NCBI RefSeq assembly: GCF_001028705.1
Contig: NZ_CP011770.1
Span: forward strand, 623,501 to 687,500
Source: Croceicoccus naphthovorans
GTDB lineage: Bacteria > Pseudomonadota > Alphaproteobacteria > Sphingomonadales > Sphingomonadaceae
Length of the DNA: 64,000 nucleotides
Direction of reading: 5' to 3'
Numbering within the stretch: the first letter of the stretch is position 1; each line of letters opens with the position of its first letter. Shown piece by piece: positions 39,988 to 59,141 of this stretch. Under the pieces are notes generated by a model. That model ran no database searches and was not told the origin of the DNA. It saw only the letters and a program-made list of their open reading frames with translations. The translations under genes and the position numbers were made by a program.

Positions 39988-39991
39988 GGAG

Positions 39992-41955: not shown

Positions 41956-42018
41956 GACAGGCGGGCAGATAGGCCGCACCGGCCCGCAAGGCTAGGCCAA
42001 ATGTTGACGGCCAAGGAA

Positions 42019-42918: not shown

Positions 42919-43118
42919 GGCAAACTCGCTTCCTCCAGACCGGATGTTTCGGACGGGATTTGGTTCCGATTCCGACCTTACTCTGCGCGATCCACGGGAA
43001 AATCCCTAGTGGCAACTTCTGCGGACTTACACGCGGCAAGCGACAGGACTGCGTCACGCCTTAACCATACAGAGGACGCTGCCGCCGACGACGAATGCCG
43101 GGGCTGCGACGCGTAGAC

Positions 43119-44522: not shown

Positions 44523-44523
44523 C

Positions 44524-45087
44524 CTAGTCTTTCGGCGGAAGGATGCGCGCGGGATTGCCGATGGCGCGTCCGCCTTTCGGCACATCGTCCAGCACCAGCG
44601 CGTTGGCGGCGACGGTCGCATTGTTGCCAATCGCTATCGGCCCGACGACCACCGCACCCGCCCCAATGGTGACGCCATCGCCAATCGTCGGCGTGCGCGT
44701 ATCGCCGGATGCGCGGCGGCCCAGCGTTACGTTCTGCAGGATCATGACATTGCGTCCGATCGCAATGTCCGACCCGATCACGATTCCAAACGGATGCGGC
44801 ACATAGAACCCGCCGCCGATTTTCGCCGAAATCGCGACTTCGCTCGAATAGCTCATTTCCAGCATGAACAGCCCAATCCGCGCCATCGGACGGCCAATGA
44901 TCGGCACTTTGCAAACGGCGCGCACCAGCCGATGGCCCAGCACGAAATTGAACCCCGGCATCAACGCCAGATGCCGCAGCCAAAAGCCCCAACCGGGATG
45001 CTTGCCTATTCTCTGCGCATAGGCGGCGACATCGGCGGCGATCAGGGCGCGCAGGCCGCCGCTCGTAACTGGCTCGCAATCCGCCAA
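44524..45087 (-). CDS. Hexapeptide-repeat acyltransferase (CysE/WcaB-like) in EPS cluster
   Basis: 187 residues from TTG 45087 with AGGGGG about seven bases upstream. The left-handed beta-helix part has the CysE-type GGGFYVPHPFGIVIGSDIAI with catalytic His, and repeats IGDGVTIGAGAVVVGPIAIG. An N-terminal helical region precedes it. Context makes polysaccharide or sugar-nucleotide O-acetylation more likely than serine acetylation. It starts two bases after the stop of the upstream glycosyltransferase, so they are coupled. Confidence 0.83.
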   Translation of the reverse strand: MADCEPVTSGGLRALIAADVAAYAQRIGKHPGWGFWLRHLALMPGFNFVLGHRLVRAVCKVPIIGRPMARIGLFMLEMSYSSEVAISAKIGGGFYVPHPFGIVIGSDIAIGRNVMILQNVTLGRRASGDTRTPTIGDGVTIGAGAVVVGPIAIGNNATVAANALVLDDVPKGGRAIGNPARILPPKD

Positions 45088-45089
45088 CC

Positions 45090-46283
45090 CTATGCCCCCT
45101 GCGCCGCGATCACGGTGCGATAGGCATCGAGGTAATCGTCAACCAGCCGCTCGACCGAGAACCGTGCCAGCAGGGCCTTGCTGGGCCGATGCCGTTTCGG
45201 GCCCTGCCGGATTGCGTCCTGCAACGCACCGGTCAGCGCACCGACATCGCCGCGATCGTACAATCGGGCATGGGGGTAAAGCCCCGCCACTTCCGCCGAT
45301 CCCCCGGCGTCGGAAACGATCACCGGCAGCCCGGCGGCCATCGCCTCTATCAAGACGCGCGGCATCGGTTCGGGCCAGATCGAGGGGATGACGATCAGGT
45401 CCAGTTCCGCAAAAAACCGGTCGATCGGCACGAACCCCGGCCACGCGACCGGCAGGTCGGCGCTTGCGGCTTTCAGCCCCTCGACATAGGATTGCTCACC
45501 CCGTCCGGCGACGGTCAGCGTCCAAGCGTCGTTTGGCAGCGGGCGGCAAGCCGAGAGCAAAGTCTCGATCCCCTTTTCCGCCTTTACCATCCCGGCAAAT
45601 CCGATCCGTAGGGGCTGTCCCGCTTTGCGCGGAGTGGGTTCGGGCGGCACCCCGATCCCCGGTACCGCGTTGAAGATCGTGCGCGACGGCGTATCGGCGA
45701 ACAGGCCTTCCTGTCGGTGCCGGTCGATCATGAACTGGCTGTTGCCGACCACCATGCCCACGCCACCTGCGTTCTTTATTCGGCGGCGGGTCAATACGCG
45801 GCAAGACAGGCAGCGCGGTGTGCAATCCTTGCCATCGCGGAACAATCCGGCCCGCGCGCAGACCAGCCCGAAATCGCGCAGCGTATGCACGACTGGCAGG
45901 TTCATCGCGCGCAGCATAGGGATTACGTCGGATCCAAAGCCCGTCAGGTTGTTGGTATGCACCGCATCGGGCGCAATACTTTCCAAAAGGCGCGCCAGAC
46001 CATCCATCCCGGCCCAGAGTCCCCGCGCCCGCCAGTGCCAGCCCAGCCGTGAAGCCGCGCCGCGTTCCTGCCCGTCATAGGGCCAATAGGTTTGCGCATG
46101 GGGCAGCCGATGCACGGTCACGCCATCTACGCTCTCGGTCGTCATCTCAGCGCCATCGTGCAGCACGATGGCGTCCACCTGATGCCCCGCTGCGACCAGC
46201 CCTTGGGCCAGCACGGCAACGCTACGCTCCGCACCGCCGACGGTGGAGGGTGGATAAAGCGTGTTGAGAATCGCGATCCGCAT
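45090..46283 (-). CDS. Glycosyltransferase family 4
   Basis: 397 residues. N-terminal GT-B domain opens MRIAILNTLYPPSTVGGAER. The C-terminal domain has IGFAGMVKAEKGIETLLSAC and the nucleotide-sugar motif WPEPMPRVLIEAMAAGLPVI with ExxxxGxP. Cysteines in CTPRCLSCRVLTRR (about 154-167) form a CxxxCxxC cluster seen in some GT4 enzymes. It adds a sugar to the lipid-linked EPS repeat. Coupled to the acyltransferase downstream; divergent from the small secreted protein gene. Confidence 0.9.
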   Translation of the reverse strand: MRIAILNTLYPPSTVGGAERSVAVLAQGLVAAGHQVDAIVLHDGAEMTTESVDGVTVHRLPHAQTYWPYDGQERGAASRLGWHWRARGLWAGMDGLARLLESIAPDAVHTNNLTGFGSDVIPMLRAMNLPVVHTLRDFGLVCARAGLFRDGKDCTPRCLSCRVLTRRRIKNAGGVGMVVGNSQFMIDRHRQEGLFADTPSRTIFNAVPGIGVPPEPTPRKAGQPLRIGFAGMVKAEKGIETLLSACRPLPNDAWTLTVAGRGEQSYVEGLKAASADLPVAWPGFVPIDRFFAELDLIVIPSIWPEPMPRVLIEAMAAGLPVIVSDAGGSAEVAGLYPHARLYDRGDVGALTGALQDAIRQGPKRHRPSKALLARFSVERLVDDYLDAYRTVIAAQGA

Positions 46284-46359
46284 TGCGGCCGTGAATGCGG
46301 CAATGCGCCGAACCAGTCACGCGCGAATACGCTGATTTTCCGCGTTTCTGATCCATATT

Positions 46360-46406
46360 GGAGGGGTTTTCCCGGAGCAGCACCGGAACGGTTCCGAAAC
46401 CCCCTC
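46360..46406. promoter_or_regulatory. Long imperfect hairpin upstream of the small EPS-cluster protein
   Basis: GGAGGGG-TTT (from 46360) pairs with AAA-c-CCCCTCC (to 46406); within it CGGAAC-g-GTTCCG forms a nested hairpin. It lies 72 bases before ATG 46478 and 77 bases from the divergent glycosyltransferase start. It could be a leader structure or operator. Confidence 0.4.
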
Positions 46407-46477
46407 CCTGCCATCGCTGAACGCTGACATGACCATGGCGAACGTCGTGTCACAGATCGAGCAGGAGATACCGGACT

Positions 46478-46735
46478 ATGAAATCTAAAATTGCCAATCC
46501 GCTTGCCGTGACCGGAGCCTTGGCGCTGGCCGTGTCACCGATGTTGACGTCGATCAGTGTCGCAGCTCCGGTAAGGGCGCCTGCTGGGCAGGAACTTCCG
46601 AAACGTGCTTCGGCCAAGCCAGAGGACGAATCGCAGATCGTCGGGCTTGGCACGGTGCTGGCGGTCATCGCCGTCGGCGGGGCGGTAGTCGCAGCTACAG
46701 TGGTTGCTTCCGGATCGTCCGATAGCAACGGCTAG
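46478..46735 (+). CDS. Small exported or membrane protein of unknown function
   Basis: 85 residues with AGGAGA nine bases before the ATG. The N-terminus is signal-like (MKSKIANPLAVTGALALAVS, then MLTSISVAA). After a charged stretch (AGQELPKRASAKPEDESQ) comes a Gly/Ala/Val transmembrane helix (about 54-77: VGLGTVLAVIAVGGAVVAAT), then SGSSDSNG. I do not recognise a family. Position in front of the Wzy/Wza/Wzc genes suggests a role in polysaccharide export or its regulation, but this is context only. Confidence 0.7.
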   Translation: MKSKIANPLAVTGALALAVSPMLTSISVAAPVRAPAGQELPKRASAKPEDESQIVGLGTVLAVIAVGGAVVAATVVASGSSDSNG

Positions 46736-46813
46736 CCGCCCGCTTGCGGCATTGCGACCGCCACGCGCATCCGCAGCCTTTTTCCTAACATTCTGAAGGT
46801 TCGCCAACCACAC

Positions 46814-48175
46814 GTGCCCAATCCGCTTCGCCTTGCTTTTCCGGCCGATCCGGCGGTTCGGCCGGCCTTACCGGCGGTCGGTGCGGAGCGTCCGCTGATG
46901 CTCTTGCTGGGCGGAGCGATCTTTTTCGGCGGAGGCGGCACGCCCGCGCCCTTGGGCGAAACCATGGCAATCCTTTGCGCCTTGGCCGCAGGCGCCTGGG
47001 CTCTTTTGCGAATGCGTGACAAGGCTGCCGGATTAGCGTCCGGTCTGCTGATGCTGGCGGTCGCTTTGCCGGGGCTGGCCCTTTTGCAATTATTGCCCTT
47101 GCCAGCATCGGCGGTCTTTGCGCTGCCGCTGCGCGCGCCGCTGGCTGCGGCCTACGATGCGCTGGGCGTGTCGCCCGTGCTGCATCCGTTGACGATGGAC
47201 CCGGCGGCCACGCGGTGGGGTCTGTTGTCATTGATCCCGCCCTTGGTCGCGCTGGTTCTGGCATCGCGACTTGATCGGCAGGGGGTGATGCGGATCATGC
47301 TGGCGCTGGTCGCGCTTGCGGTTCTATCCGGGGTGCTGGCGGGTTTGGAGCGTGTGGGCGGCGCGACCTTTGCCATCTATGCGCGCTCTGCCGGGACCGG
47401 CTCCGGCGGCTTGTTCGCGAACCAGAACTCGCAGGGCGATTTCCTGCTGATCGGCATGATCGCGGCGATCTTTCTTTCGTCTCCCAAGGATGCTGCGCTC
47501 GCATGGTTTCGCCCGCTTGTGCTGCTGATCGTGGCGTTTCTGGCGCTCTGCGTCTTGCTAACCGGCTCGCGCGCCGCGATTGCGCTGTTGGCGGTTCCGC
47601 TGGGGCTCTACGCGATCTTGAACTTGCGCGTGGGCCTGTCCCGCCGGTCAATCACCTTCGCCATGCTGCCGATTGCCGCGCTGGCGACCTTCCTTGCCCT
47701 GGCCCGTGATGCAACCGCCATTGCCACCGTGCTGGACCGTTTTGCATTGGGCGCAGACGGGCGGCTGACCGCGATCTGGCCCGATGCCCTTCACCTTGCC
47801 GGGGTCGCGTTCCCCTTCGGCACCGGGATCGGCACTTTCCCGCAGGTTTTCCCCATGGTCGAACGGTTATCGGTCGTCGACACGACCCTCGCCAACCGTG
47901 CCCACTGCGACTGGCTGGAATTCGCGATCGAGGGCGGGCTTCCGGCGATCCTGCTGTTGGCGGGGCTGGGCGCTTTTCTGGTTCGCACCACGCTTCGCAA
48001 ATGGCGCGAAGGCTTCATGTACGGAGATTCGTCGATGGTCTCGATCATGGCGCTCGTCGCCACGCATTCGCTCGTGGATTATCCACTTCGCTCCATTTCG
48101 CTGGCAGTGGTGACGGCCATTGCGCTTGGATATTTCGGACAAAAGCCGGGGGGTCGCGCTCATGCTCAGGTTTAA
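46814..48175 (+). CDS. O-antigen ligase/Wzy-like polysaccharide polymerase
   Basis: 453 residues from GTG 46814 with about 11 membrane segments. The Wzy_C-type core is visible: SGGLFANQNSQGDFLLIGMI, LLTGSRAAIALLAVPLGLY, and the large periplasmic loop ending TTLANRAHCDWLEFAIEGGL. Members polymerise or ligate lipid-linked repeat units in the periplasm. The next gene (Wza-like) starts inside its last 14 bases, so the two are coupled. A second, different polymerase-like gene is present at 52077-53390. Confidence 0.85.
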   Translation: MPNPLRLAFPADPAVRPALPAVGAERPLMLLLGGAIFFGGGGTPAPLGETMAILCALAAGAWALLRMRDKAAGLASGLLMLAVALPGLALLQLLPLPASAVFALPLRAPLAAAYDALGVSPVLHPLTMDPAATRWGLLSLIPPLVALVLASRLDRQGVMRIMLALVALAVLSGVLAGLERVGGATFAIYARSAGTGSGGLFANQNSQGDFLLIGMIAAIFLSSPKDAALAWFRPLVLLIVAFLALCVLLTGSRAAIALLAVPLGLYAILNLRVGLSRRSITFAMLPIAALATFLALARDATAIATVLDRFALGADGRLTAIWPDALHLAGVAFPFGTGIGTFPQVFPMVERLSVVDTTLANRAHCDWLEFAIEGGLPAILLLAGLGAFLVRTTLRKWREGFMYGDSSMVSIMALVATHSLVDYPLRSISLAVVTAIALGYFGQKPGGRAHAQV

Positions 48176-48863
48176 CGGGATGCGCGTTGGCGCAGCCATC
48201 TTCGTCGCAGCCGCGCTAGGCGGCTGCCAGTCGGTGCCGGACGCATCGATGGCGCGTGGACCCGCCGCCTATCAGGTACTCGCGCCGCAGGACGCACAGT
48301 CGATGGGCGCCTATCGCATCGGCCCGTTCGACCGGCTGACGATCTCTGTTTACGACGATCCCTCGCTGTCCTACACCGACCTGCCCGTCGATGCCGAGGG
48401 GCAGTTCGAATATCCGTTGATCGGCACGGTTACCGCCGCGGGCCTTACCAGCGGCGAACTGACGCGGCAGATCAAGGGCCGTCTCGATGACGCGTTCTAT
48501 AACGACGCGCGCGTCACGGTCTTCGTCAACAGCTCTGCCAGCCAGTTCGTGACGGTCGAAGGGTCTGTGACCGAACCGGGCCGCTATCAACTGCCCAACG
48601 GCCGCGCGACCCTGCTGGAAATGATCGCGCAGGCGAAAAGCCCGACGCGTACGGCCAAGCTGGACCAGGTGATGGTGTTCCGCATGGAGGATGGCCAGCG
48701 CATGGGCGCGGTCTTCAACCTTGCCGAAATCCGGCGCGGCGCGGCGGACAACCCCGCGCTGCGCGGCGGCGATATCGTCGTCGTCGGCAATTCGGCGGTG
48801 AAGGGCGCGTTCCGCGACTTCCTGCTGACCGCGCCGTTCTTCAACGTGTTTCAGGCGTTCTGA
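48162..48863 (+). CDS. Wza-like polysaccharide export lipoprotein (OPX)
   Basis: 233 residues from ATG 48162, with GGGGGG about eight bases upstream. A lipobox ALGGC (Cys near residue 22) indicates a lipoprotein. The Poly_export domain follows (AYRIGPFDRLTISVYDDPSL, VDAEGQFEYPLIGTV) and one SLBB-type domain (VTVEGSVTEPGRYQLPNGRA). It is shorter than Wza and lacks the long C-terminal alpha-barrel helix. It would form the periplasm/outer-membrane channel for polysaccharide with the Wzc-like kinase encoded next (one base gap). Confidence 0.9.
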   Translation: MLRFNGMRVGAAIFVAAALGGCQSVPDASMARGPAAYQVLAPQDAQSMGAYRIGPFDRLTISVYDDPSLSYTDLPVDAEGQFEYPLIGTVTAAGLTSGELTRQIKGRLDDAFYNDARVTVFVNSSASQFVTVEGSVTEPGRYQLPNGRATLLEMIAQAKSPTRTAKLDQVMVFRMEDGQRMGAVFNLAEIRRGAADNPALRGGDIVVVGNSAVKGAFRDFLLTAPFFNVFQAF

Positions 48864-48864
48864 T

Positions 48865-51048
48865 ATGAACAGGCATTCGTCCATCGCCGCCATCGGCACT
48901 TATCGACCCGACTTTGCGCCCGATCCGATCGAGAACGCTCCGGTCCTGAACATGGGCCGCGTCGGCGGGATCGTCTGGCACTATCGCCTGCTGATCGCGG
49001 GCCTGTTCCTTGGCGCATTGCTGCTGGGTCTGGCCATCACGATGCTTCTGACGCCGGAATATACCGCCAGCGCCAGTTTGCAGATCGATCAGGAAGCGCA
49101 ACGCATCCTCGATTCGCAGGACGAGGCGTCCAGCAGCGCGTGGCAGGATGCCGACCGGTTCCTGCAAACCCACGTCGACGTGCTGCGCAGCCGCCGCATG
49201 GCCGAACGCGTTGCGGGCGAGCTGGACCTGTTCGACGATGCCGACGCGTTTTTTGCCACGATGCAGGTCGACCCGCCCAAGGCCGGGCTGGGCGATCCCG
49301 ATCTGGCCAGGCGCGAGAAAGTGCTGCGCGTGATCGCCGACAATCTCGACATTCACCTGCCCGGCGATTCGCGGGTGGTGAGCATCGCCTTCACCAGCCC
49401 CGATCCGCAATTCGCCGCGCGTTTCGCCAATACTTTTGCCGACAGCTATGCGCGGTACAATGTGGACCGGCGGGTGGAGAATACCGAATACGCCCGCGAC
49501 TTCCTGTCGCGCCAGCTGTCCGAAGCGCGCGACCGATTGGAACGCGCCGAGCAGGATGCCAACAACTATGCCCGCACCGTCGGGCTGGTCCGCACACCCT
49601 CTACTGCGCCGGGCCTGCCCGAATCGACTCTGACCGCCGTCGATCTGGGGGCCTATAACGGCGCGCTGGCAGAGGCGCGGACAGAGCGGATCGCGGCGCA
49701 GAGCAAGTGGAACCGCGTGGCGGGTGCGCCCGATATCGCCATCGGCGATGCGATCTCGAACCAGGCGATGCAGCAACTGATCGCAGCGCGCGCCGCCGTA
49801 CATGCGCAACTTCAGGCGCAACTGGCCAACAAGCAGGCCGCGCATCCGGCGGTCGCACCCTTGCGCAATCAGCTGGAAGAATACGATGCGCAGATCGCTT
49901 CGCTGGCCGAAGGTATTCGCCGTTCGGTGCGCGACGATTACCTGATGGCGGTTCAGCGCGAGCAGGAACTGCAGGGCCGCGTCAACGGCCTCAAAACCGC
50001 GACGCAGCAGGAACGGGACGAGAGCGTGCAGCTCAACACCCTGATGCGCGAGGTGGACACCAGCCGCCAGCTCTATGACGCATTGTTGCAGCGTTATCGC
50101 GAGACGAGCGCAGAGGCGAACATCACCAGCAACAACGTGCAGCAGATCGACCGCGCGATGCCGCCGGTGCGGCCATCGTCGCCGCGCCTGTTGCTGAACC
50201 TTGCGCTGGCCGGCCTGCTGGGACTGGCCGTGGCGGCGGTGGTCGTGTTCCTGCGCGAGCAGGGCGACGATCGGCTGCGCCGTCCATCGGATATTGCCGA
50301 GAGGCTGGGGCTGAAACTGCTGGGCATTACCCCAAAGCTGAAGGGCGATGCCGATCCGGTGGCGGTGCTGGCCGAGCCTGCCTCGCCGCTGGCCGAATCG
50401 TTTGCATCGCTACGCACCGCCTTGCAGTTCGCGACACCTGTCGGCCTTCCGCGCCTGTTGATGCTTACTTCTACCGAGGCTGCAGAAGGGAAGTCGTCCA
50501 CCGCATACGGTATTGCGCGTTCGGTCGCGGACGGCGGCGCGCGCGTGTTGTTGATCGATTGCGATCTGCGCCGCCCGGCTATCGCCGACATCACAGGTGT
50601 TCGGAACACCGTGGGCCTGACCGGAGCGCTGGCGACGCCGGGGGCGGTCGGCAGCGCCATCGAACAGAGCGAAATCGCGAACCTGTTCGTGATGACCAGC
50701 GGCGCGCGGCCCGCTGTGCCGACCGATTTAATCGGATCGGCCCAGATGATGGCGCTGTTGTCGCGGTTTGGCGAACGGTTTGACACGATCGTTTTGGATG
50801 CCCCACCGGTGCTGGGGCTGGCCGATGCGCCGATCCTTGCCAACTTGCCGGGCGTTGCGACATTGTTCGTGGTTGAGGCCGGAAGAACGCACCGGGCTGC
50901 GGCAAAAAGCGCGCTGGCGCGGCTGCGCGATACCAATGCCGACGTGATCGGCGCGGTCATGTCCCGCTTCGACTTTGCAGAGGCACGTCGCCTTGGGCTG
51001 GGCCACGAATATGGGCGGGGGTACACCTATTACAACTACGGTGCCTGA
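48865..51048 (+). CDS. Wzc-like polysaccharide co-polymerase / tyrosine autokinase
   Basis: 727 residues. Wzz-type chain-length domain with TM1 at about 33-57 and TM2 at about 439-460 enclosing a coiled-coil periplasmic part. The cytoplasmic BY-kinase has Walker A STEAAEGKSSTAYGIARS (from about 534), Walker A' VLLIDCDLRRP (about 561) and Walker B FDTIVLDAPPVLGLAD. The C-terminus ends in a tyrosine cluster (EYGRGYTYYNYGA), the autophosphorylation tail. It controls polymer length and export through phosphorylation cycles. No cognate low-molecular-weight phosphatase gene is in the cluster. Confidence 0.94.
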   Translation: MNRHSSIAAIGTYRPDFAPDPIENAPVLNMGRVGGIVWHYRLLIAGLFLGALLLGLAITMLLTPEYTASASLQIDQEAQRILDSQDEASSSAWQDADRFLQTHVDVLRSRRMAERVAGELDLFDDADAFFATMQVDPPKAGLGDPDLARREKVLRVIADNLDIHLPGDSRVVSIAFTSPDPQFAARFANTFADSYARYNVDRRVENTEYARDFLSRQLSEARDRLERAEQDANNYARTVGLVRTPSTAPGLPESTLTAVDLGAYNGALAEARTERIAAQSKWNRVAGAPDIAIGDAISNQAMQQLIAARAAVHAQLQAQLANKQAAHPAVAPLRNQLEEYDAQIASLAEGIRRSVRDDYLMAVQREQELQGRVNGLKTATQQERDESVQLNTLMREVDTSRQLYDALLQRYRETSAEANITSNNVQQIDRAMPPVRPSSPRLLLNLALAGLLGLAVAAVVVFLREQGDDRLRRPSDIAERLGLKLLGITPKLKGDADPVAVLAEPASPLAESFASLRTALQFATPVGLPRLLMLTSTEAAEGKSSTAYGIARSVADGGARVLLIDCDLRRPAIADITGVRNTVGLTGALATPGAVGSAIEQSEIANLFVMTSGARPAVPTDLIGSAQMMALLSRFGERFDTIVLDAPPVLGLADAPILANLPGVATLFVVEAGRTHRAAAKSALARLRDTNADVIGAVMSRFDFAEARRLGLGHEYGRGYTYYNYGA

Positions 51049-52108
51049 TCGGGTGCCCCGGCCCTGGGGCAGACCGGTGCGGCTTGCCGCAACCGGGGTG
51101 CTGGCGGGACTGGCGGTTCTGACCGGTGGGTCCGGCGCTGAGCGGGCCAAAATATTTCAGCGCGACCCGGTTGAGGCCGCGCTGGCCCGTCCGTTGCAAC
51201 CGGGGGCGATGGCGCTGGCCGCCTTGGCTCTGCAGGCGGAGGGTCGAGAGGCGGCGTCGGGCCTAGTGATACGGGCCGCCGCGATGCAGGGCTGGCGCGA
51301 TCCGCTGGCGCAAAGCTGGGCGGTGCAGCAGGCGCTCGTGTCGGGGCATCCGAACATCGCGGCGGAGCGGATGGAGGCGCTGCTGCGGGCAGCACCTGAA
51401 AGCGCCTTGGCCGCGCCGGTGTTGGCAAGCGTGACGGCAGATGGCGACGCACGCCGGGCCTTGGCGAAACGGATGACCATTGGCGAGCCGTGGAGCGATG
51501 CCGTGCTGCCGATGTTGGCGGAGCAGGGTTCGCCGGGGTTGGTGCCGTTAGCTCGAGAAGCCCGCCGATCCGGCTACCTGCCCGCGCGCGCAGGGTTGGT
51601 CGATGCGGTCGGTAGGGCGGCTCAGCGCGATCCGGCGCTTGGACAAGACCTGCTCGCCGCCTTGGCAGGGCCGCGCGATCTGGCTCGCACCGGACTGTGG
51701 GATGCGGCGTTCGCCGCAGTGAAATTGCCGCGCGATCAGGTCACCCCTTTCGAATGGGCGCGAATGCCAGCTGCGGGTGTTGCGCTGTCCAGCGCCAAGG
51801 GGCGGCTGAACGTAAAGCGAACCGCCCACACACCCGCCCATGTCGCTGCCATAACCGCCGTGGTCGCACCGGGCAGATACCGTCTGACCTGGCATGCTTC
51901 GGGCAATGAACCATTGTCGTTGCACGCGGTCTGTGCATTTCCCGCCCGTGCGCTGGAAAACGCGCGCATCCAGCAACATGCCGATGAATTCGCGCGCACA
52001 ATCACCGTGCCTGAAGACTGCCGCGCAGTCCGGATTCGTGTATTCGCGCCGTCATCCGGGCCGAGCCAGAGCTGGCTCAGCCAGCCATCGATAGAGCGGA
52101 TCGACTGA
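51041..52108 (+). CDS. Hypothetical protein in the EPS export operon
   Basis: 355 residues if started at GTG 51041, overlapping the kinase gene; GTG 51053 or ATG 51011 are alternatives and none has a clear ribosome site. A hydrophobic N-terminal segment (VRLAATGVLAGLAVLTGG) suggests a signal or anchor. The middle is an Ala-rich helical repeat region resembling TPR/HEAT-like arrays (AMALAALALQAEGREAASGL, LAREARRSGYLPARAGLV). The last third looks beta-rich with two cysteines (VCAF, DCRAVRIRVF). No family recognised. Likely periplasmic partner of the export machinery. Its 3' end overlaps the convergent polymerase-like gene by 32 bp. Confidence 0.65.
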   Translation: MPDRVPRPWGRPVRLAATGVLAGLAVLTGGSGAERAKIFQRDPVEAALARPLQPGAMALAALALQAEGREAASGLVIRAAAMQGWRDPLAQSWAVQQALVSGHPNIAAERMEALLRAAPESALAAPVLASVTADGDARRALAKRMTIGEPWSDAVLPMLAEQGSPGLVPLAREARRSGYLPARAGLVDAVGRAAQRDPALGQDLLAALAGPRDLARTGLWDAAFAAVKLPRDQVTPFEWARMPAAGVALSSAKGRLNVKRTAHTPAHVAAITAVVAPGRYRLTWHASGNEPLSLHAVCAFPARALENARIQQHADEFARTITVPEDCRAVRIRVFAPSSGPSQSWLSQPSIERID

Positions 52109-53390
52109 CGGGCGCTTCCTCTCTGCCCAGCCGGATCAGGTGCATCCCGCTGGTCGCATAGCCGATGACGAACAGCGCGAAAGCCGGCGAATAGGCCTCT
52201 ACCGACAGGACGTAGAGATTGATCGCCGCGATCAGCAGCAGCTTGGTCCGGTCCTGCTCTTTCAGTGCGGCCAGCACCATCCCGGCGACCAGCGGCACGA
52301 AACACAGGCCGAACATCGCGAAGCTGGTAAGATAGAAATTGTCGATAGGCCGCAACAGCGATGCCCATTCCGAATAGCGCGCCGGAAAGGTCAGGCAGCC
52401 AAGTCCGCACCCGAACACCAGCGATTGGGGCGACCGATCGGCCAGAAAAACGAAGGGAAATTGCCAGCTTTCGCGCACGCGCTGTTGAAAGCTGGCAAGG
52501 TTCGGACTGATTTCCTCAAACCGGATCGACGATGCCGCAACCACCATCACCAGCGGCACGAGTACCAGCAGGAACGACCCCACCGCCAGCACGCGATGCG
52601 CTTCGCGTGTCCGCAAAGGGGCAAGGAAATAGGCCTGCACCGCGATAAACACCGTCGCCATGATCGAAACGACCAGTGCCGTCCGGCTCGTCGCGATCCA
52701 GCACGTCGCGATCACGCCCAGCCCCAGCGCGATGGCGGCGGTAGGGCTCAGCTTGCGGTGGACGAGCAGCAGCGTGAGCAAAGCGATCATCGCCGCCGTC
52801 GTCGATTCCCCGGAAAACCCGCCGAACCGCGTGACCGATTGAATCCACCAGACGCGGTCGACCGTCTTTTCCTGCCCAAACTGTTCGATGGCAAGGCCGG
52901 ACCACGGATAGGTCACGAACTGGTCGATCACGACACCCGCGATGGTCAATAGGCAGACCATAACCAACAGCCTGCGCATCCGCGACAAGGCGGGCAGATC
53001 GACCCCGGCCAGCAGCCAGCCGGCATAGATCGGCACGAACATCTTGAATGCCGCGCCCAGAAAGGCCGGGGCCGGCCCCACGGTCGCAGCGGCAATGAAC
53101 AAGGAAATCGGCAAGAGCGCCAGCGCATAGAGTGCAAACGGAGCCCTCCGCCGCAGTCCGAATTCCCACGCGAAGGCAGCCAGCGCGACGACCCCGATCA
53201 GATCGACCGCGAACCAGGCAAGACCCAGCCCGCCCAGATCGAGCCACCACCGCACCGGTGCGGCAAAGGCATCGCGCAGCAGGTGCGCCGCCCCGGCGAC
53301 AAGACCGATCAGGCGAACGGTATCCAGCGATGGTGTCTCGGCCCGATCCCACCGCGCGGCGGCGGGCAAGGCCCCCTGAAACTGTCCCAT
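52077..53390 (-). CDS. Second O-antigen-ligase/EPS polymerase-like membrane protein
   Basis: 437 residues with about 11-12 membrane segments. A cytoplasm/periplasm pattern like Wzy proteins is seen: GFSGESTTAAMIALLTLLLV, IATSRTALVVSIMATVFIAV and a large loop (FEEISPNLASFQQRVRESWQ) followed by FGCGLGCLTFPARYSEWASL. It differs from the 46814 gene and could be the true Wzy with the other a ligase, or the reverse. It ends with 32 bp convergent overlap with the hypothetical gene. Confidence 0.72.
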   Translation of the reverse strand: MGQFQGALPAAARWDRAETPSLDTVRLIGLVAGAAHLLRDAFAAPVRWWLDLGGLGLAWFAVDLIGVVALAAFAWEFGLRRRAPFALYALALLPISLFIAAATVGPAPAFLGAAFKMFVPIYAGWLLAGVDLPALSRMRRLLVMVCLLTIAGVVIDQFVTYPWSGLAIEQFGQEKTVDRVWWIQSVTRFGGFSGESTTAAMIALLTLLLVHRKLSPTAAIALGLGVIATCWIATSRTALVVSIMATVFIAVQAYFLAPLRTREAHRVLAVGSFLLVLVPLVMVVAASSIRFEEISPNLASFQQRVRESWQFPFVFLADRSPQSLVFGCGLGCLTFPARYSEWASLLRPIDNFYLTSFAMFGLCFVPLVAGMVLAALKEQDRTKLLLIAAINLYVLSVEAYSPAFALFVIGYATSGMHLIRLGREEAPVSRSALSMAG

Positions 53391-53417
53391 GCCAAAGGGT
53401 TATCATCGCGGGAAAAG

Positions 53418-53446
53418 CGGGGCCAGATCAGGTTGATCCGGCCCCG
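53418..53446 (-). terminator. Intrinsic terminator of the spike-base/beta-helix unit
   Basis: CGGGGCC-a-GATCA / TGATC-c-GGCCCCG with a three-base loop: 12 pairs with one internal mismatch. Six bases after the beta-helix stop on the minus strand, followed there by GCTTTTCC. It isolates the spike-like pair from the polymerase-like gene downstream. Confidence 0.75.
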
Positions 53447-53452
53447 ATGCAA

Positions 53453-54895
53453 TTACCAATTGTCCACCAAACCGGTTCCTTGCGGCGCGGACCGCAGTGG
53501 CGGCATCGCGCGCAAGTGGACGGCGGCGGCGTTGTCGGCGTGGGCATGGGTGGTGGCGGGCGGCATCGCGATACGCACCCGGTCGGCCCAGATCTGCGCC
53601 GACTCGTTCGCCACGATCGCGCCCGGCGGGGTCGTACCGCCCAACACGATGTCACCACGGTCGGCAAAAATCCGAGTGCCCGCCAGCCATGTCAGCGATT
53701 GCGCGACACAGCGGATCGTGCCGCCGTTGGTCCGCCCGAACTCACCCGCGAAATCCGCGCCGACGACGTCCTCGTGCAGGGTAAAGCTGTTGCAGCTGAG
53801 CGCCGCATTGCGTCCGCACAGGATGGACCGGCAGTTGACGGTGACAAGGTGGCAATCGGTATCCAGCCCGCCATAATTGCTGCCCGAAAAGCCGTCCTTC
53901 GCATTGTTGCTGGCGTCGCAATCGACGAACAGCGCCAGTCCGTGCAGGTCGCCGATGATGGTGCCGTTGGCATTGATCGCATCGCTGCCGCAATAGTTGA
54001 AGGTGCTGCGCTCAACCACGACTGCCTTCATCGATCCGGGCTTTGCGGTCGGCTGATAATGAAAGCCGGCAGAGGCGCTGCCGCCGATCGTATCGAAGCC
54101 CGAAATCGTGTCGTCCGCGCCCAGATACACGCTGGTCGGGGCATCGAACCGCCATGTGCCGCCGCCTGAACGCAGGACGCGGACGTTGCGGTTGGTCACC
54201 GCCTTGCCGTCGTGCCGGTTGACGTAGATCTTGCCGTTTACAAAGGCCCAGCTGCCCGGCGTGCGATTGCAGATCGCGGCGGTGTCGACGCGCAGCAGAT
54301 CGGGGTGAAAGCCATCGGCATCGTGGCGCGACAGGTCGATCACCCGGTCCACCGTCGCCACTGACCAGCCGTAGCAATTGGTCTGCGTGCCATCCTTCGG
54401 CGGGTTGGCGTAATCGTCCCAAGTGCCCGTCACCACCCGTCCGCCCTTGGCGATAAAGGCGATGTCCACGGTGGGGCGCATGGCGATGAACATCGAAGGG
54501 TTCGTGGGCTTGCCGTACTCGCCCGCGCGGACGATCACCTTGGCCGGTTGCCCGCTGGCGTTCGCCGCCTCGACCGCTTTCCAGATTGAGCGCCATGGCA
54601 GCGATTCGGTGCCTTGGCCGTCGTTGTCGCTGCCCGTGGGAGAGACGTAATAGGTGTTTGCCGGGGCCGAGCGCGCGGTCGAGAACAGGTCGAAAATCTC
54701 GGCAGGCGACTTGTCCAGCGTGGCGACGGTGCCGTCGGCATGGCTGGACAGCGCGACGTTTGGTTCCCACTCGGCGACGGTCCACGCCGCGCGCCAGTCG
54801 GCGGGGATGTCCGCGCGCACGGCTTCGTCCATCGCGACGCCGAAACCGGCAAGGGCGGAGCGGCTGACGCCGCCGATTGATCCGGAATGGTGCAT
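53453..54895 (-). CDS. Right-handed beta-helix protein, candidate head-spike/tailspike fibre
   Basis: 480 residues. The first 75 residues form a separate N-terminal region, then NTYYVSPTGSDNDGQGTESL (80-99) is the typical entry to a right-handed parallel beta-helix. Repetitive beta rungs follow (VIVRAGEY, GSMKAVVVERSTFNYC, LFVDCDASNNAKDGFSG, NGGTIRCVAQ). There is no signal peptide, unlike secreted polysaccharide lyases. It starts five bases after the spike-base-like gene, so the two are one transcription unit. By analogy with GTA GhsA/GhsB, it may be the fibre that binds or cuts capsule. An alternative is a cytosolic EPS-related enzyme. Confidence 0.6.
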   Translation of the reverse strand: MHHSGSIGGVSRSALAGFGVAMDEAVRADIPADWRAAWTVAEWEPNVALSSHADGTVATLDKSPAEIFDLFSTARSAPANTYYVSPTGSDNDGQGTESLPWRSIWKAVEAANASGQPAKVIVRAGEYGKPTNPSMFIAMRPTVDIAFIAKGGRVVTGTWDDYANPPKDGTQTNCYGWSVATVDRVIDLSRHDADGFHPDLLRVDTAAICNRTPGSWAFVNGKIYVNRHDGKAVTNRNVRVLRSGGGTWRFDAPTSVYLGADDTISGFDTIGGSASAGFHYQPTAKPGSMKAVVVERSTFNYCGSDAINANGTIIGDLHGLALFVDCDASNNAKDGFSGSNYGGLDTDCHLVTVNCRSILCGRNAALSCNSFTLHEDVVGADFAGEFGRTNGGTIRCVAQSLTWLAGTRIFADRGDIVLGGTTPPGAIVANESAQIWADRVRIAMPPATTHAHADNAAAVHLRAMPPLRSAPQGTGLVDNW

Positions 54896-54900
54896 TTTGC

Positions 54901-55164
54901 TCAGCCCTCCGCGATCAGGTCAGTCGCCGTCGTCCCGGTCGCGCGCACATGGCTGGCGCGCACGGCGATGTAGCTGGCGTCGGGAAGGTTGCGATAGGTC
55001 ACATCGGCATCGCTATCCATGCCGCGCAGGGTCACGTCCCCTCCGCTTCCGACGTAGATGCCCTTGGGAATCGCGGGCAGGCTGGCATTGTCGTCGGGTT
55101 GAATCGCGAAGGGCGCACGGGACGGCGAATTCGCGCTGTCCTGAAAGGATTCGAATCGATCCAT
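54901..55164 (-). CDS. Spike base protein, Rcc01079 (GhsA)-like
   Basis: 87 residues with GGAG about nine bases before ATG 55164. The sequence follows the small GTA head-spike-base family: an N-terminal FAIQPDDNASLPAIPKGIYV, then GGDVTLRGMDSDADVTYRNL, and the end VRASHVRATGTTATDLIAEG (family pattern RA..V.ATGTTAT.I). There is no signal peptide. In Rhodobacter capsulatus the family member Rcc01079 sits on GTA heads and anchors the fibre Rcc01080 that binds capsule. Here it precedes a beta-helix gene inside the EPS cluster. Family assignment is by motif recognition. Confidence 0.75.
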   Translation of the reverse strand: MDRFESFQDSANSPSRAPFAIQPDDNASLPAIPKGIYVGSGGDVTLRGMDSDADVTYRNLPDASYIAVRASHVRATGTTATDLIAEG

Positions 55165-55228
55165 GTTCTTGCTCCGTTCTATGGAGCCAGCCTCTTATGC
55201 AGGATCGCAGCTTGTAGGAAAGTGGATT

Positions 55229-56395
55229 ATGCGAATTCACCTAAATGCCCATACCGGTTTGGTTGACGCATCGGTTTCAGGGTCGCCGGCCATGGTTCGG
55301 GACGAGCAGGAACATTGGCCGCGCGTGCTGCATGTCAGCGAGGTGCTGCCCGGCGGGGTCGGGCGCTATATCGACGAGTTGTCGCGGGCGCAGGCGGCAG
55401 ACGCCGGGCCGGGGCAAGTGGCGGTGCTGGGGCCGGAGGGGCAGCTGGATACGATGGCGCCCGATCCGGCGGTGCGGTATTTCGGCTATCGGCAGGCGCA
55501 GCGCGGAGTTGGAGGGCTGGCATCGCTGGCGCGGGCCTTGCGGCGAACGGTGTTGGAGTTTCGGCCCGATGTCGTTCACTTGCACAGCAGCTTTGCGGGG
55601 CTGGTCGGGCGGCTGATCGGCACCGGGGTGGCGACGGTGTACACCGCGCATGGTTGGGCCATCGATCCCGACCGGCCAGCGCGGTTTCGCCCCGCGATGA
55701 TCGCGACCGAGCGGGCCTTGGCGCGGCGGTGCGATGCGGTGATCAATATCTCTCCGCACGAGATGGCGTTTTTGGGCGAGATGGGGTTTCCGGCGGATCG
55801 GATGCGGCTGGTGCTGACGGGTCTTGGGAATGCCGCGATGCGAACTTCGCCAGCGCCCGTCGGCGGCGATGGGCCGTTGCGGCTGTTATTCGTCGGCAGG
55901 CTCGATCCGCAAAAGGGCTTCGATCTGCTGTGGCCCGAACTGGTCGAGGCTGCGCCGGGCAACCTGCATGTGCGCGTGGCAGGAACGGCGATGAAGGGCG
56001 GCGGTGGAGCCGGGTATCGCCCGCTGCCCAATGTCGAATTCCTCGGCTGGGTCGATCATGCAGAGGTGCAACGCCAGCTGGGATGGGCCGATGCGCTGAT
56101 CATGCCTTCTCGGTGGGAGGGTATGCCGCTTGCCGCGCTGGAGGCGATGCGGGCGGGGCGGGCCGTGCTGTCCAGCGACCGGAGTGCGTTCCGGTCCATT
56201 GTCGAGCATGGGGTGAGCGGTTTGCGGCTGGATATCGACCGGCCCGGTTTCCTCGCCCGAGCGCTGGAGGGGGTCACACGCGCCGATCTGGTGCGGATGG
56301 GCGCGGCGGGTCGGGCGCGGATCGAGTGCGATTTTCGCCATGATCGCATGGTGCGCGAAATCTGGGATGTCTATCGAGAGGTCGTTGCGCCTTGA
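55229..56395 (+). CDS. Glycosyltransferase family 4
   Basis: 388 residues from ATG 55229 with TAGGAAAG upstream. GT-B fold: N-terminal LHVSEVLPGGVGRYIDELSR and VVHLHSSFAGLVGRLIGTGV, then C-terminal LLFVGRLDPQKGFDLLWPEL and the donor motif MPSRWEGMPLAALEAMRAGR. It probably adds a sugar to the lipid-linked EPS repeat on the cytoplasmic face. Divergent from the spike-base gene across 64 bases and overlapping the next glycosyltransferase by 25 bp convergently. Confidence 0.9.
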   Translation: MRIHLNAHTGLVDASVSGSPAMVRDEQEHWPRVLHVSEVLPGGVGRYIDELSRAQAADAGPGQVAVLGPEGQLDTMAPDPAVRYFGYRQAQRGVGGLASLARALRRTVLEFRPDVVHLHSSFAGLVGRLIGTGVATVYTAHGWAIDPDRPARFRPAMIATERALARRCDAVINISPHEMAFLGEMGFPADRMRLVLTGLGNAAMRTSPAPVGGDGPLRLLFVGRLDPQKGFDLLWPELVEAAPGNLHVRVAGTAMKGGGGAGYRPLPNVEFLGWVDHAEVQRQLGWADALIMPSRWEGMPLAALEAMRAGRAVLSSDRSAFRSIVEHGVSGLRLDIDRPGFLARALEGVTRADLVRMGAAGRARIECDFRHDRMVREIWDVYREVVAP

Positions 56396-57474
56396 GCGAC
56401 CCGGTCGACCAGTCCCGAAAGTCGCCGCGCGGACCGATCCCAGGCATAGCTGGCGGCCTGCAACCGACCCTTGGCGATCATCCGTTGGGCCAATTGCGCA
56501 TCGCCGGTGACCGCCAGCATTGCGCACCCCATCTCCCCTACATCGAGCGGGTCGACCAGCAACGCGGCCTCGCCGCAAACTTCGGGCAGGGCGGAGGCTT
56601 TTGCGGCGATCACCGGGGTGCCCAGCGCCATTGCCTCAATCGCTGGAATGCCGAACCCTTCGAGCAGCGAGGGCATCAGAAATGCCGCCGCCCCTTCAAT
56701 CACCGCGCGCAGTTCGGCGTCATTGATGCGCGACAGTCGGTGCAGGCGCGGGTGCTTGGCCATACCGATCTCATCGCCGAAAATGCGCGGATCGCCGCCG
56801 CCGACAATGACGAGGTCGAACGCGGGATTGTCCAGCGCGGCATAGGCGGCAAGCGCGGTGGCGAAATTTTTGTTCGGGTTCGCGCTGCCGACGCACAGCG
56901 CATAGGGCCGTGCCGCGATGCCAAGGCGTTCTGGGGCGCTGCGGTCGGGTTCGACCTCAAGGATATGATCGGCGGCGTTGTAAATCACCTCGATCCGGCT
57001 GGCGTCGATGCCGAAGGCCCGCGCGATCTCTCTTGCCGACCAATGCGAGACGGTGCAGATCGTCGCCTGCCGCGCCAGCGCGCCTTGCAACACGCGATAG
57101 GCAACGCGAAAGCGCCGCGAAAATCCATCCGGGCCGAGCAGATAGTTCACATCGTGGATCATCACGATCTGCCGCCGCAGCCCGACCGGTCCGGTACCGC
57201 CCAACCCGACAAGAACGTCCTGCGGGCCGAGATGGCGACGCAGCGTCACCTGTTCCCACAAGTGCCCCGAAAGGCCGGGCACGACCTCTACCGGCATCGC
57301 GTAATCGGGTCGTGGCGGTTCTGGCGCGACCGTCACCGCATCGGTGCGCGTCGTGATCAGCCGACGCCCAAGTTCATAGGCGACGCGCTGGACGCCGGTC
57401 ATCGGCTGGCCGGTGAAACGGGCATTCAGATGGATCAAGCGGCCCCCAATGTGGTTGGCGATATTGCCAAACAT
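56371..57474 (-). CDS. Glycosyltransferase family 4
   Basis: 367 residues from ATG 57474; GTG 57537 would add 21 residues but overlaps the divergent flippase start. N-terminal LNARFTGQPMTGVQRVAYEL is typical of GT4 enzymes acting in EPS loci. The C-terminal part has YALCVGSANPNKNFATALAA and MPSLLEGFGIPAIEAMALGT with the E..G.P donor motif. It likely acts in repeat-unit assembly. Convergent overlap with the preceding glycosyltransferase and a short divergent gap to the flippase. Confidence 0.9.
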   Translation of the reverse strand: MFGNIANHIGGRLIHLNARFTGQPMTGVQRVAYELGRRLITTRTDAVTVAPEPPRPDYAMPVEVVPGLSGHLWEQVTLRRHLGPQDVLVGLGGTGPVGLRRQIVMIHDVNYLLGPDGFSRRFRVAYRVLQGALARQATICTVSHWSAREIARAFGIDASRIEVIYNAADHILEVEPDRSAPERLGIAARPYALCVGSANPNKNFATALAAYAALDNPAFDLVIVGGGDPRIFGDEIGMAKHPRLHRLSRINDAELRAVIEGAAAFLMPSLLEGFGIPAIEAMALGTPVIAAKASALPEVCGEAALLVDPLDVGEMGCAMLAVTGDAQLAQRMIAKGRLQAASYAWDRSARRLSGLVDRVAQGATTSR

Positions 57475-57530
57475 AGGCAAGGGGTTAGGCAGCCCGCGGT
57501 GTTCGATCAAGCAAAGCAGGCTCCATATCG

Positions 57531-58763
57531 GTGGCACTTGCCATGTGGCTGACGGGCGGGACCATTTTCGGATTGCGTATTGCGACGCTCGGCTTGCGCT
57601 TTGCGCTTGCCGTTTACGTCACGGCGCTGCTCGGCCTTGCCGACATGGGCAGGCTGGGCATCGTTCAGGGCCTTAGCGCCTTAGTCCCGGCGGTGATCGG
57701 GATGGGGTACAACTTTCACATGTGCCGCGATGTCGTGGGCGGCGATCCGGCCGGCCGCATCGCAATCGTTCGCGACCGTCTGGCTTGGTCGATGCGTATG
57801 GCGGCGCTGGCCGCCACCCTGGGGCTGGGGGGATGGTGGCTGGTCCTCGGTCGGCCCGACTGGATCGTCCTTGTCGTCGTGGCGATCCTTTGGGCGGAGG
57901 CGCTGGCGATGGATGCGTATCTTGCGCTGACCGGGCTGCGCATGAACGTTCTGGCGAACGTCGGCGTTCTGCTGCGCACGGCGGCGTGGGTGCCTATTGC
58001 CATCGCGGGCGGCTGGCTGGCGCCCGACTTGCGGACGCTGGACTTCGTCTATGCCTGCTGGCTGGGCGGGCATGTCGCCAATTTCGCGCTGCTGTACCGC
58101 ACTTTGCATGCGCGCGGGCTTTGGCCCCGCTGGCGCGACGACCCGCCGACCGGCTGGCTGGGCAGAACGCGGAAAGGCGCGGTGCAGATATGGCCCAGCG
58201 ACGTGGCCCTCGTCCTGATTTCCTACGGCGACCGTTTCATTCTTGCGGCAATTGTCGGTGAAGCGGCATTGGGCGCCTATGTCTTTTTCTGGACCTTCGC
58301 CAACATGATCAGGACGCTGATGCAGTCATCGGTGGTCACCCCGGCCTTGCCGCGCCTGATCGAATTGAACCGGGTCGACAGGGCAAGCTGGCTGGCCGCC
58401 GCACGGCGGCTGGGCATCGCGATACCGCTGGTGGGGGCGACAGCTTCGGCGGGAATGCTGGCGTTCGTCTGGGCCGGACACGCCTATGTGCCGCAGGGCG
58501 ACTTCCCTTGGGACGGCCCGCTTGCCGTGGCGATCTTCGCGGCGATACTGGCGATCTATTGCGGCGATTACCTGTCGACCGTGCTCAACAGCGCCGGGGC
58601 GGTTCGGGCTTATTCCACGCTGAACATCGCGTTTGCCGGGGTGCTGATGCTGGGCGTGCTGATAGGGGCATTGACCGGCGGTGTCATCGGCGCAGTCGTC
58701 GCCAGCCTGATCGTCGCGCTGGTCTTCGACGCGTTGAAAGTCCGCGCCGTCGTCCGCGTTTAG
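57531..58763 (+). CDS. Wzx-like polysaccharide flippase
   Basis: 410 residues from GTG 57531 (ATG 57543 is an alternative without ribosome site). About 12 membrane segments in the MATE/Wzx pattern; characteristic elements are SDVALVLISYGDRFILAAIV, ALGAYVFFWTFANMIRTLMQ and SSVVTPALPRLIELNRVDRA. It would flip undecaprenyl-linked repeat units to the periplasm for the Wzy polymerase. It is the last gene of the cluster on the plus strand, ending seven bases from the convergent bolA. Confidence 0.82.
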   Translation: MALAMWLTGGTIFGLRIATLGLRFALAVYVTALLGLADMGRLGIVQGLSALVPAVIGMGYNFHMCRDVVGGDPAGRIAIVRDRLAWSMRMAALAATLGLGGWWLVLGRPDWIVLVVVAILWAEALAMDAYLALTGLRMNVLANVGVLLRTAAWVPIAIAGGWLAPDLRTLDFVYACWLGGHVANFALLYRTLHARGLWPRWRDDPPTGWLGRTRKGAVQIWPSDVALVLISYGDRFILAAIVGEAALGAYVFFWTFANMIRTLMQSSVVTPALPRLIELNRVDRASWLAAARRLGIAIPLVGATASAGMLAFVWAGHAYVPQGDFPWDGPLAVAIFAAILAIYCGDYLSTVLNSAGAVRAYSTLNIAFAGVLMLGVLIGALTGGVIGAVVASLIVALVFDALKVRAVVRV

Positions 58764-58770
58764 GTCCAGC

Positions 58771-59079
58771 TTAAACTTCGCCCGGCGCTTTCGCCTTGAT
58801 CGCCAGCGCGTGAACGCGTTGGCCCGGCAGGTCGCCCAGCGCGCGGTTCACCATCCGCTGCCTCTCCAGCCGCGAAACGCCGCGAAAGGCATCGGCCACG
58901 ATGGTCACCGTGAAGTGCGATTCGCCTGTGCCGTCATCGCCCGAATGGCCGCGGTGCATCGCGCTGTCGTTGCTGACGTCCAGCAGTTCCGGCGAAAACG
59001 TGACCTGCAGGATCGAACGGATTTCGGCCTCGACCGGGCCGGTATCGGATTCGGGGGCGGGGTGAGAAGTGCTGTCCAT
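58771..59079 (-). CDS. bolA: BolA-family protein
   Basis: 102 residues: helix-beta fold with VEAEIRSILQVTFSPELLDV, the conserved HxGHxG-like stretch MHRGHSGDDGTGESHFTVTI and FRGVSRLERQRMVNRALGDL with a conserved His in GQRVHALAIKAKAPGE. BolA proteins pair with monothiol glutaredoxins in iron-sulfur handling and stress response. Divergent from the DnaJ-like gene 62 bases away, an arrangement common in alphaproteobacteria. Confidence 0.92.
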   Translation of the reverse strand: MDSTSHPAPESDTGPVEAEIRSILQVTFSPELLDVSNDSAMHRGHSGDDGTGESHFTVTIVADAFRGVSRLERQRMVNRALGDLPGQRVHALAIKAKAPGEV

Positions 59080-59141
59080 GCGCCGCCATATGGGTCACGG
59101 GGGTTCCAATTGCAAAGTCGATCCCTATCCTTTGGGGCGCA

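Follow-up and report, generated by a model that had tools for sequence, protein, structure and literature searches.

The window analysed here, 64,000 nucleotides of the Croceicoccus naphthovorans chromosome (G000:C1:623501-687500, where G000 denotes the window genome), carries within an exopolysaccharide (EPS) biosynthesis cluster a pair of reverse-strand genes that probably encodes the head spikes of the genome's own gene transfer agent (GTA), which resembles the GTA of Rhodobacter capsulatus (RcGTA). From our point of view, it is well supported that the pair is GTA head-spike equipment and likely that it serves the GTA of this very genome; that it addresses the particles to the EPS encoded in the same block would be the natural reading by analogy with R. 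capsulatus. The argument combines the family of the base protein, a GTA cluster that itself lacks a spike gene, the linkage of spike and polysaccharide genes, and a motif, TTTCCTACA, that the pair has in common with lysis and gafA-type genes; the pair is therefore probably the spike of the genome's own GTA and under GTA control. Family, fold, GTA cluster, linkage, the all-or-nothing behaviour of the block and the common motif were computed, whereas we infer the assembly on the head, the regulator that would read TTTCCTACA, the ligand and the effect on DNA recipients. An earlier note, made from the DNA letters of the window, had drawn attention to the pair and had placed both frames and the gap of five bases between them correctly. 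The elements of the spike locus are as follows.

54901..55164, reverse strand: head-spike base protein of the Rcc01079/GhsA family (open reading frame of 87 aa; NF048002, PHROG 12296, PDB 6tb9)
53453..54895, reverse strand: head-spike fibre with an N-terminal anchor (about residues 1-44) and a right-handed beta-helix (480 aa)
53418..53446, reverse strand: terminator-like stem-loop after the fibre gene (13-bp stem)
55213..55221, reverse strand: promoter element TTTCCTACA, located 57 bp upstream of the spike-base start codon and a candidate site of the GTA regulon
55194..55199, reverse strand: CATAAG, possible -10 element after TTTCCTACA (putative, by eye)
55165..55179, no strand assigned: GTTC-N7-GTTC, LexA-like box abutting the spike-base start codon (pattern scan)

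The Rcc01079 pattern that the earlier note had recognised in the 87-aa protein was borne out both by profile and by fold. The protein scores 100 bits against NF048002 ("spike base protein, RCAP_Rcc01079 family"), well above the curated cut-off of 28, it matches PHROG 12296, and it aligns with PDB 6tb9 (Rcc01079) at E=8e-6. An AlphaFold2 model built from a 28-sequence alignment (pLDDT 90.3) shows a small beta jelly roll like that of Rcc01079, with 6tb9_A1 as the first Foldseek hit (E 4.4e-6, TM 0.79/0.82), so that the structural match to GhsA is present as well; the second hit is a chain of the phage Carin1 capsid (E 2e-3). Judged by sequence and model, the protein is an RcGTA-type head-spike base, and it is the sole NF048002 match in the whole 3.86-Mb genome.

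The fibre gene follows directly after the base gene, and in all four Croceicoccus loci (4/4) a spike-base gene precedes the fibre. The beta-helix that had been read from the sequence of the 480-aa protein is indeed predicted by structure modelling. Foldseek returned low TM-scores for the fibre and a second structure aligner ranked BT_1002 first, a shared fold of a model that is no demonstration of activity. By structure comparison, the helix resembles glycoside hydrolases, lyases and depolymerases. In sequence it shares about 41% identity with actinophage proteins that bear the name hydrolase (Arthrobacter phage Sarge gp26, Gordonia phage Rofo gp25). Its matches are thus phage proteins and polysaccharide enzymes of the extracellular type and not a characterised cytosolic enzyme. 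The actinophage match covers most of the helix and leaves the first 44 residues outside. The small gene before Rofo gp25 had been considered as a further spike base and was dropped, as profile comparison gave no match. Across 37 fibre homologues 14 columns are invariant, among them D229, D334, H374 and D415. No signal peptide is visible by eye on either spike protein. The strong terminator of its own that had been ascribed to the pair is plausible rather than strong: a stem-loop lies exactly there and its 66-nt stretch folds at -27.4 kcal/mol (z-score -3.5), but the T-tract is short (GCTTTTCC) and a terminator pattern scan did not list it.

The proposed GTA function implied a GTA cluster elsewhere in the genome, and an RcGTA-like head-tail cluster was found at G000:C1:725257-739273 (reverse strand), about 47 kb from the spike pair, as the first of two places in the genome that are marked by TIGR02217. 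It comprises the portal, prohead protease, HK97 capsid, head-tail connector, tail tube, Rcc01695 distal tail, hub and gp10 families as well as an NlpC/P60 match below its cut-off. The capsid scores 282 bits to Rcc01687 and the hub matches the RcGTA chain in 6tba/6teh at 1.9e-31, whereas the megatron reaches 369 bits against a model cut-off of 800 and is thus a short, variant one. The capsid and g6 genes adjoin with no spike gene between them. A GTA-type holin (PF11351), a lysozyme (PF00959) and a single gafA-type DUF6456 gene (PF20057) lie elsewhere in the genome. As judged from sequence, genes of an RcGTA-like gene transfer agent are present in this genome. Among 249 genomes of the family, the GTA g12 family occurs in 34/39 spike-bearing and 131/210 other genomes (p=0.003, uncorrected for relatedness).

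The GTA_TIM profile (PF13547) finds no match in the window genome and one, below its cut-off, in the 249 genomes; it was set aside as a poor GTA marker in the present case, in which the g12 domain is instead preceded by a fused TIM barrel. At G000:C1:729144-731477 (L037), a 'non-contractile tail sheath' N-domain and a TIM barrel (PF23844, PF23845) precede the g12-type part in a single fused protein, and the long open frames at many listed TIGR02217 hits (often 740-980 aa) suggest that this fusion is common in the family. The second TIGR02217 locus (G000:C1:1478000-1512000; L039, L040), for which genes were called only, holds a long tape-measure-like open reading frame and is perhaps a prophage or a remnant of one.

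Spike bases of this family are found in two main settings, namely within GTA clusters and within polysaccharide loci. In the 249 genomes, NF048002 gave 45 at E<=0.001 and 39 over the cut-off, in 43 rows; 41 places were examined, i.e. the window and 40 loci, whereas a weak additional place in G164 and the other fragment of a split match in G156 were not counted separately. Canonical bases (over 90 bits) make up 33/41, the eight weaker ones (L073-L080) being outside the tally and kept in the second Wzz statistic given below. Ten of the 33 belong to a GTA cluster, where they stand between the capsid and g6 genes (L045, L048, L054, L058, L059, L062-L065, L071); 20 lie in polysaccharide loci, one beside prophage genes (L046, by eye) and two elsewhere (L055, L067). 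The 20 polysaccharide-borne bases consist of 18 with a Wzz gene within 20 kb, L069 (Wzc and Wza by tblastn) and L044, counted by its nucleotide-sugar and O-antigen-type genes. A class-wide draw gave 10/385 genomes over the NF048002 cut-off, four of which were family members already counted; among the seven loci of the other six, the base of L088 stands between capsid and g6 of a GTA cluster, L089 and L091 are close to Wzc-type genes, L087 is bordered by phage-type genes, and L085, L086 and L090 carry no assignment. Since bases occur between capsid and g6 both in the family (10/33) and outside it (L088), we regard the spike base as GTA equipment. The linkage with polysaccharide genes suggested for this pair is far above chance in its relatives, with a Wzz gene within 20 kb of 18/33 canonical bases vs 1.1 expected from Wzz numbers and genome sizes, or of 18/41 vs 1.4 with the weak bases included, in a test that treats the genomes as independent although they are related. 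Moreover, 16/20 genomes with polysaccharide-borne spikes match the GTA capsid of the window genome.

The TTTCCTACA element occurs once in the window (0.05 expected). It stands upstream of the base in 17/20 polysaccharide-borne loci, at a distance of 56-79 bp to the nearest in-frame ATG, and also in the C. bisphenolivorans locus L002; of the exceptions, L056 has the reverse complement of eight TTTCCTACA bases at -73, and L066 and L068 have none. Within 250 bp upstream of the GTA-borne bases it is found in 0/10. In six genomes TTTCCTACA has 133 occurrences vs 55 for a reversed control pattern, and the genes downstream were read in G000 (13/13), G048 (13/13), G119 (25/25), G103 (26/30), G009 (18/25) and G178 (6/27), spikes included. 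In five of these genomes (G000, G009, G048, G103, G119) the element precedes the only DUF6456 gene (5/5), in 4/5 the GTA-type holin (not in G119) and in 3/5 a lysozyme (G000, G119 and an unlike one in G103), at 58-77 bp from the start codons of these holin, lysozyme and DUF6456 genes (63 bp in G000). Other TTTCCTACA sites lie inside genes or before genes without a recognised tie to GTAs. Proteins that by eye resemble small terminases or HTH regulators are encoded downstream of TTTCCTACA at L192, L197, L198 and L202 (G103) and L177 (G009), with further such sites at L161 and L163 (G048) and L204 (G119); these proteins are related and possibly further members of a regulon.

DUF6456 is the annotation of gafA homologues, which are described across GTA-containing alphaproteobacterial orders (PMC9765227). 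In R. capsulatus, the genes for head spikes, tail fibres and lysis are reported to be late GTA genes that depend on GafA and CtrA, and two of their three promoters carry putative GafA sites (PMC9638019). A 2024 Caulobacter paper describes the GafA binding elements of R. capsulatus as unmapped at nucleotide resolution (PMC11150451). In this context, TTTCCTACA is a candidate site through which a GTA regulator may act on the spike pair. In the spike-less congener G036, the DUF6456 match at G036:C1:501845-502224 is split between two frames, with pieces that overlap, so that the gafA-type gene may be broken there.

A second element upstream of the spike base is the GTTC/GAAC-N7-GTTC/GAAC box, which we take to be LexA-like. 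The window has four such boxes vs 1.8 expected, which is not significant alone; the exact box occurs, however, in 8/20 upstream regions of polysaccharide-borne bases vs 0.1 expected from mononucleotide shuffles, directly adjoining the start codon in the window, G119, G178 and L002. The order TTTCCTACA and then the LexA-like box GTTCTATATATGTTC was also seen before a small secreted-looking protein at G000:C1:1507474 (reverse strand; L148) and G119:C1:49065 (reverse strand; L117). A near-palindrome AACC-N5-GGTT (e.g. AACCTATTTGGTT) stands upstream of the spike bases of G047, G180, G029 and G041, beside or overlapping TTTCCTACA in some of the genomes, and similar letters occur near the holin of G009.

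Within the genus, the spike pair and the EPS block are present or absent together, and either a gain here or a loss there would fit this pattern. The window flanks 39,074-42,891 and 58,776-59,732 have aligned counterparts in G221 that are separated by 73 bp; in G036 the distance is 762 bp and includes one small gene. As these colinear flanks are nearly joined, the block of about 15.9 kb with EPS genes and spike pair is missing there. Neither G221 nor G036 has a spike base (NF048002), and their Wzz-bearing loci are of another type (Wzc 39-40% identical). Among the five genomes of the genus that were drawn, the three with a spike (G000, G119, G178) share one EPS type and the two without have another. 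The locus L002, found via its fibre, has the EPS type of the window (Wzc 60-68%, Wzx 57-66%, fibre 65-67% identical) and a spike base 81% identical to that of the window. Across the congeners the frames have stayed open, with base identity at 82%; in G119 and G178 the left flank gene of the block lies on another contig. The joint inheritance of spike and EPS genes that had been suggested is therefore supported at the level of the whole block, which is composed as follows.

42892..58775, no strand assigned: EPS-plus-spike block, about 15.9 kb, missing as a unit in two congeners (flank alignment)
43095..44522, forward strand: polyprenyl glycosylphosphotransferase, WcaJ type (TIGR03025 310 bits, cut-off 296)
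44524..45087, reverse strand: hexapeptide acyltransferase (PF00132)
45090..46283, reverse strand: glycosyltransferase (PF00534, PF13439)
46814..48175, forward strand: membrane protein of the O-antigen ligase/polymerase type (PF04932 53 bits, cut-off 31.7)
48120..48863, forward strand: Wza-type export protein, Poly_export (PF02563 73.5 bits)
48865..51048, forward strand: Wzc-type chain-length/tyrosine kinase (PF13807, PF02706, TIGR01007)
50975..52108, forward strand: EPS-cluster protein without significant profile (homologue in the G178 cluster, 32-33% identical)
52077..53390, reverse strand: membrane protein, possible second polymerase (no significant profile; 54-60% identical in L002, G119, G178)
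55163..56395, forward strand: GT4-type glycosyltransferase, divergent from the spike base (PF13439, PF13692); its true start is, by eye, probably further in, near 55229
56371..57537, reverse strand: glycosyltransferase (PF00534)
57531..58763, forward strand: Wzx-like flippase (weak profile, PF01943 E=0.024, below cut-off)

By profile matches, the spike genes adjoin EPS genes on either side. The surroundings that the earlier note had named, Wzy/Wzc on one side and glycosyltransferases/Wzx on the other, hold for Wzc, Poly_export, the O-antigen-ligase type protein and the glycosyltransferases, whereas Wzx stays below threshold and the second polymerase lacks a significant profile. The GC content of the block is unremarkable, the single tRNA of the window (10282-10357) leaves the block edges free of tRNAs, and no defence-system profile was matched.

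The mechanism that we envisage follows RcGTA, in which the base structure has been solved and five copies on a capsid pentamer hold one fibre by its N-terminus (PMC7296036). By analogy, five copies of the 87-aa base would sit on a capsid pentamer and hold one 480-aa fibre, whose beta-helix would bind, and may cleave, a surface polysaccharide. Transcription would be switched on together with the GTA lysis genes and the gafA-type activator gene via the common TTTCCTACA, possibly with LexA control of the pair in addition. As no export signal is visible, the spike would be released attached to the particle when the cell lyses and, as it is encoded inside the EPS block, it would be inherited with one EPS type, the most likely ligand being the EPS of the same block, as is the capsule in R. 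capsulatus.

Several observations weigh against this reading. Four of the 20 genomes with polysaccharide-borne spikes (G041, G079, G102, G244) have no capsid match at E<=1e-20, despite a TIGR02217 match in G102 and, weakly, in G244; the loci of three of these genomes (L061, L060, L047) still have TTTCCTACA, and G041, G079 and G102 have the DUF6456 gene. Spike and motif can therefore exist without this capsid, and our confidence in the own-GTA reading was lowered because of this. Similarly, G221 has DUF6456 and no capsid match, and an exact TTTCCTACA precedes the GTA cluster itself in 0/16 regions. In RcGTA, Glu12 of the base is reported to bind a cation at the capsid, a single RcGTA detail outside the family definition (PMC7296036); in pairwise alignment an Asn of the window base takes its place. 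An alternating hydrophobic star peptide (e.g. LGFGFG) was seen by eye in 12/20 polysaccharide-borne fibres, and the N-terminus of the window fibre has a weaker form of it, ALAGFGVAM (14-22). Similar fibres also occur in differing EPS backgrounds, as those of L042 and L049, which are 44% identical and share no flanking protein at 40% identity. Finally, the EPS loci read in G036 and G221 occupy a different position in the chromosome and thus do not show one block replacing another at the same site.

If the pair is a GTA spike, its place among EPS genes could nevertheless result from descent or convenience, i.e. the spike would have entered an EPS locus in some ancestor and remained there without any functional match between spike and EPS, an explanation that we regard as rather unlikely. 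In a tree of 40 bases (86 columns, many forks unsupported), all ten family GTA-borne bases fall into one clade (98/94), together with the prophage-associated L046 and the polysaccharide-borne L066, so that most polysaccharide-borne bases group apart, and the polysaccharide label needs 5 changes vs 13.4 in shuffles. Their GTA capsids separate the two groups as well: identity to the capsid of the window genome is 66-100% for the polysaccharide-borne (15/16 at >=73%) vs 61-68% for the GTA-borne (10/10), and the linkage may hence be largely inherited. However, it persists while the flanking genes differ between genera, L066 inside the GTA-borne clade and L089 and L091 in other families indicate a repeated association of spikes with polysaccharide genes, and R. 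capsulatus shows the linkage too. The suggested co-variation of spike and glycosyltransferase alleles has a counterpart in that fibre pairs of the same family have more flanking proteins in common (a mean of 3.6 over 17 pairs vs 0.34 over 173 pairs), but we do not count this as proof, because relatedness is not removed and Croceicoccus loci dominate. The idea that the fibre diverges faster than the particle was dropped, as the capsids of G119 and G178 are 93% identical but the terminase only 74-75%.

The earlier note had also considered a domesticated phage depolymerase, which would act off the particle in EPS turnover or release, e.g. at lysis or during biofilm dispersal. The resemblance of the helix to polysaccharide-degrading enzymes and to the phage hydrolases, the 14 invariant columns, as expected of an enzyme, the link to lysis genes via TTTCCTACA and the genomes without a capsid match would all suit it, as would a GTA tailspike that, in a 2026 preprint, is reported to degrade biofilm and to detach (PMC13420450). 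Yet an enzyme working off the particle accords poorly with the spike-base gene before the fibre in every Croceicoccus locus, with the lack of a visible export signal and with base-fibre pairs of the same base family inside GTA clusters. As such, this explanation is weakened by the spike base and by the promoter element common to GTA genes and appears quite improbable to us, although an enzymatic spike is possible. A prophage leftover or the spike of a different phage is the least probable origin by our assessment, since for all that spike-base-like proteins occur in 79/50,697 phage records (E<=0.01; 72 being weak Flavobacterium phage matches, and Paracoccus phage Pben1 at 6e-8 and Rhodobacter phage RcapNL the best) and adjoin prophage genes in L046 and L087, the pair has EPS genes on either side, has TTTCCTACA in common with GTA-type holin, lysozyme and gafA-type genes, and keeps its open frames across congeners.

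Returning to the head spike of the genome's own GTA, one could tentatively extend it to the statement, which we rate at somewhat less than an even chance, that the spikes of Erythrobacter-like Sphingomonadales are address tags for the producer's own EPS, that exchange is confined to cells with the same coat and that a coat change re-addresses the particles, with TTTCCTACA as the gafA-type site that drives spike, holin, lysozyme and the activator itself. If this were true, a spike and its receptor in one block would provide a physical mechanism for coat-type-restricted exchange, the question whether GTAs are kept for delivering DNA to kin would become testable, and TTTCCTACA would offer a first handle on the Sphingomonadales GTA regulon and a way to find dispersed GTA parts.

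The link between spike and capsule is itself already known in one species, R. capsulatus, where the spike genes are linked to and co-regulated with capsule genes (PMC10218006). Searches of the openly readable literature on GTAs, head spikes and polysaccharide brought up no description of spike genes within EPS loci of Sphingomonadales, nor of the motif TTTCCTACA; the recurrence of the spike-capsule link in a second order, a block that is present or absent as a whole, and the motif thus appear new. Like GhsA/GhsB (Rcc01079/Rcc01080) of R. capsulatus, the Croceicoccus pair combines the base family and fold with base and fibre genes side by side that adjoin capsule or EPS genes. It differs in that it occurs in Sphingomonadales, next to other polysaccharide genes and inside a block that can be absent as a whole, and in that its fibre has 480 aa and a hydrolase-like beta-helix vs the 325 aa of Rcc01080, a distinction drawn by description and not by sequence comparison. 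The putative regulatory motif in Croceicoccus is common to spike and GTA accessory genes.

Spike pairs inside Sphingomonadaceae GTA clusters (L045, L058, L062) have the same base family and, in several cases, a fibre-type open reading frame after the base; they differ in their position between capsid and g6 and in having no TTTCCTACA within 250 bp upstream (10/10). The RcGTA tailspike TspA, as described in the preprint, is likewise a beta-helical GTA protein that acts on polysaccharide and whose gene lies apart from the head-tail cluster, but by that description it sits on the tail instead of the head and has another N-terminal domain (PMC13420450). The actinophage hydrolases Sarge gp26 and Rofo gp25, lastly, have the beta-helix in common with the Croceicoccus fibre, which is set apart from them by its first 44 residues and, in comparison with Rofo gp25, by the spike base encoded before it.

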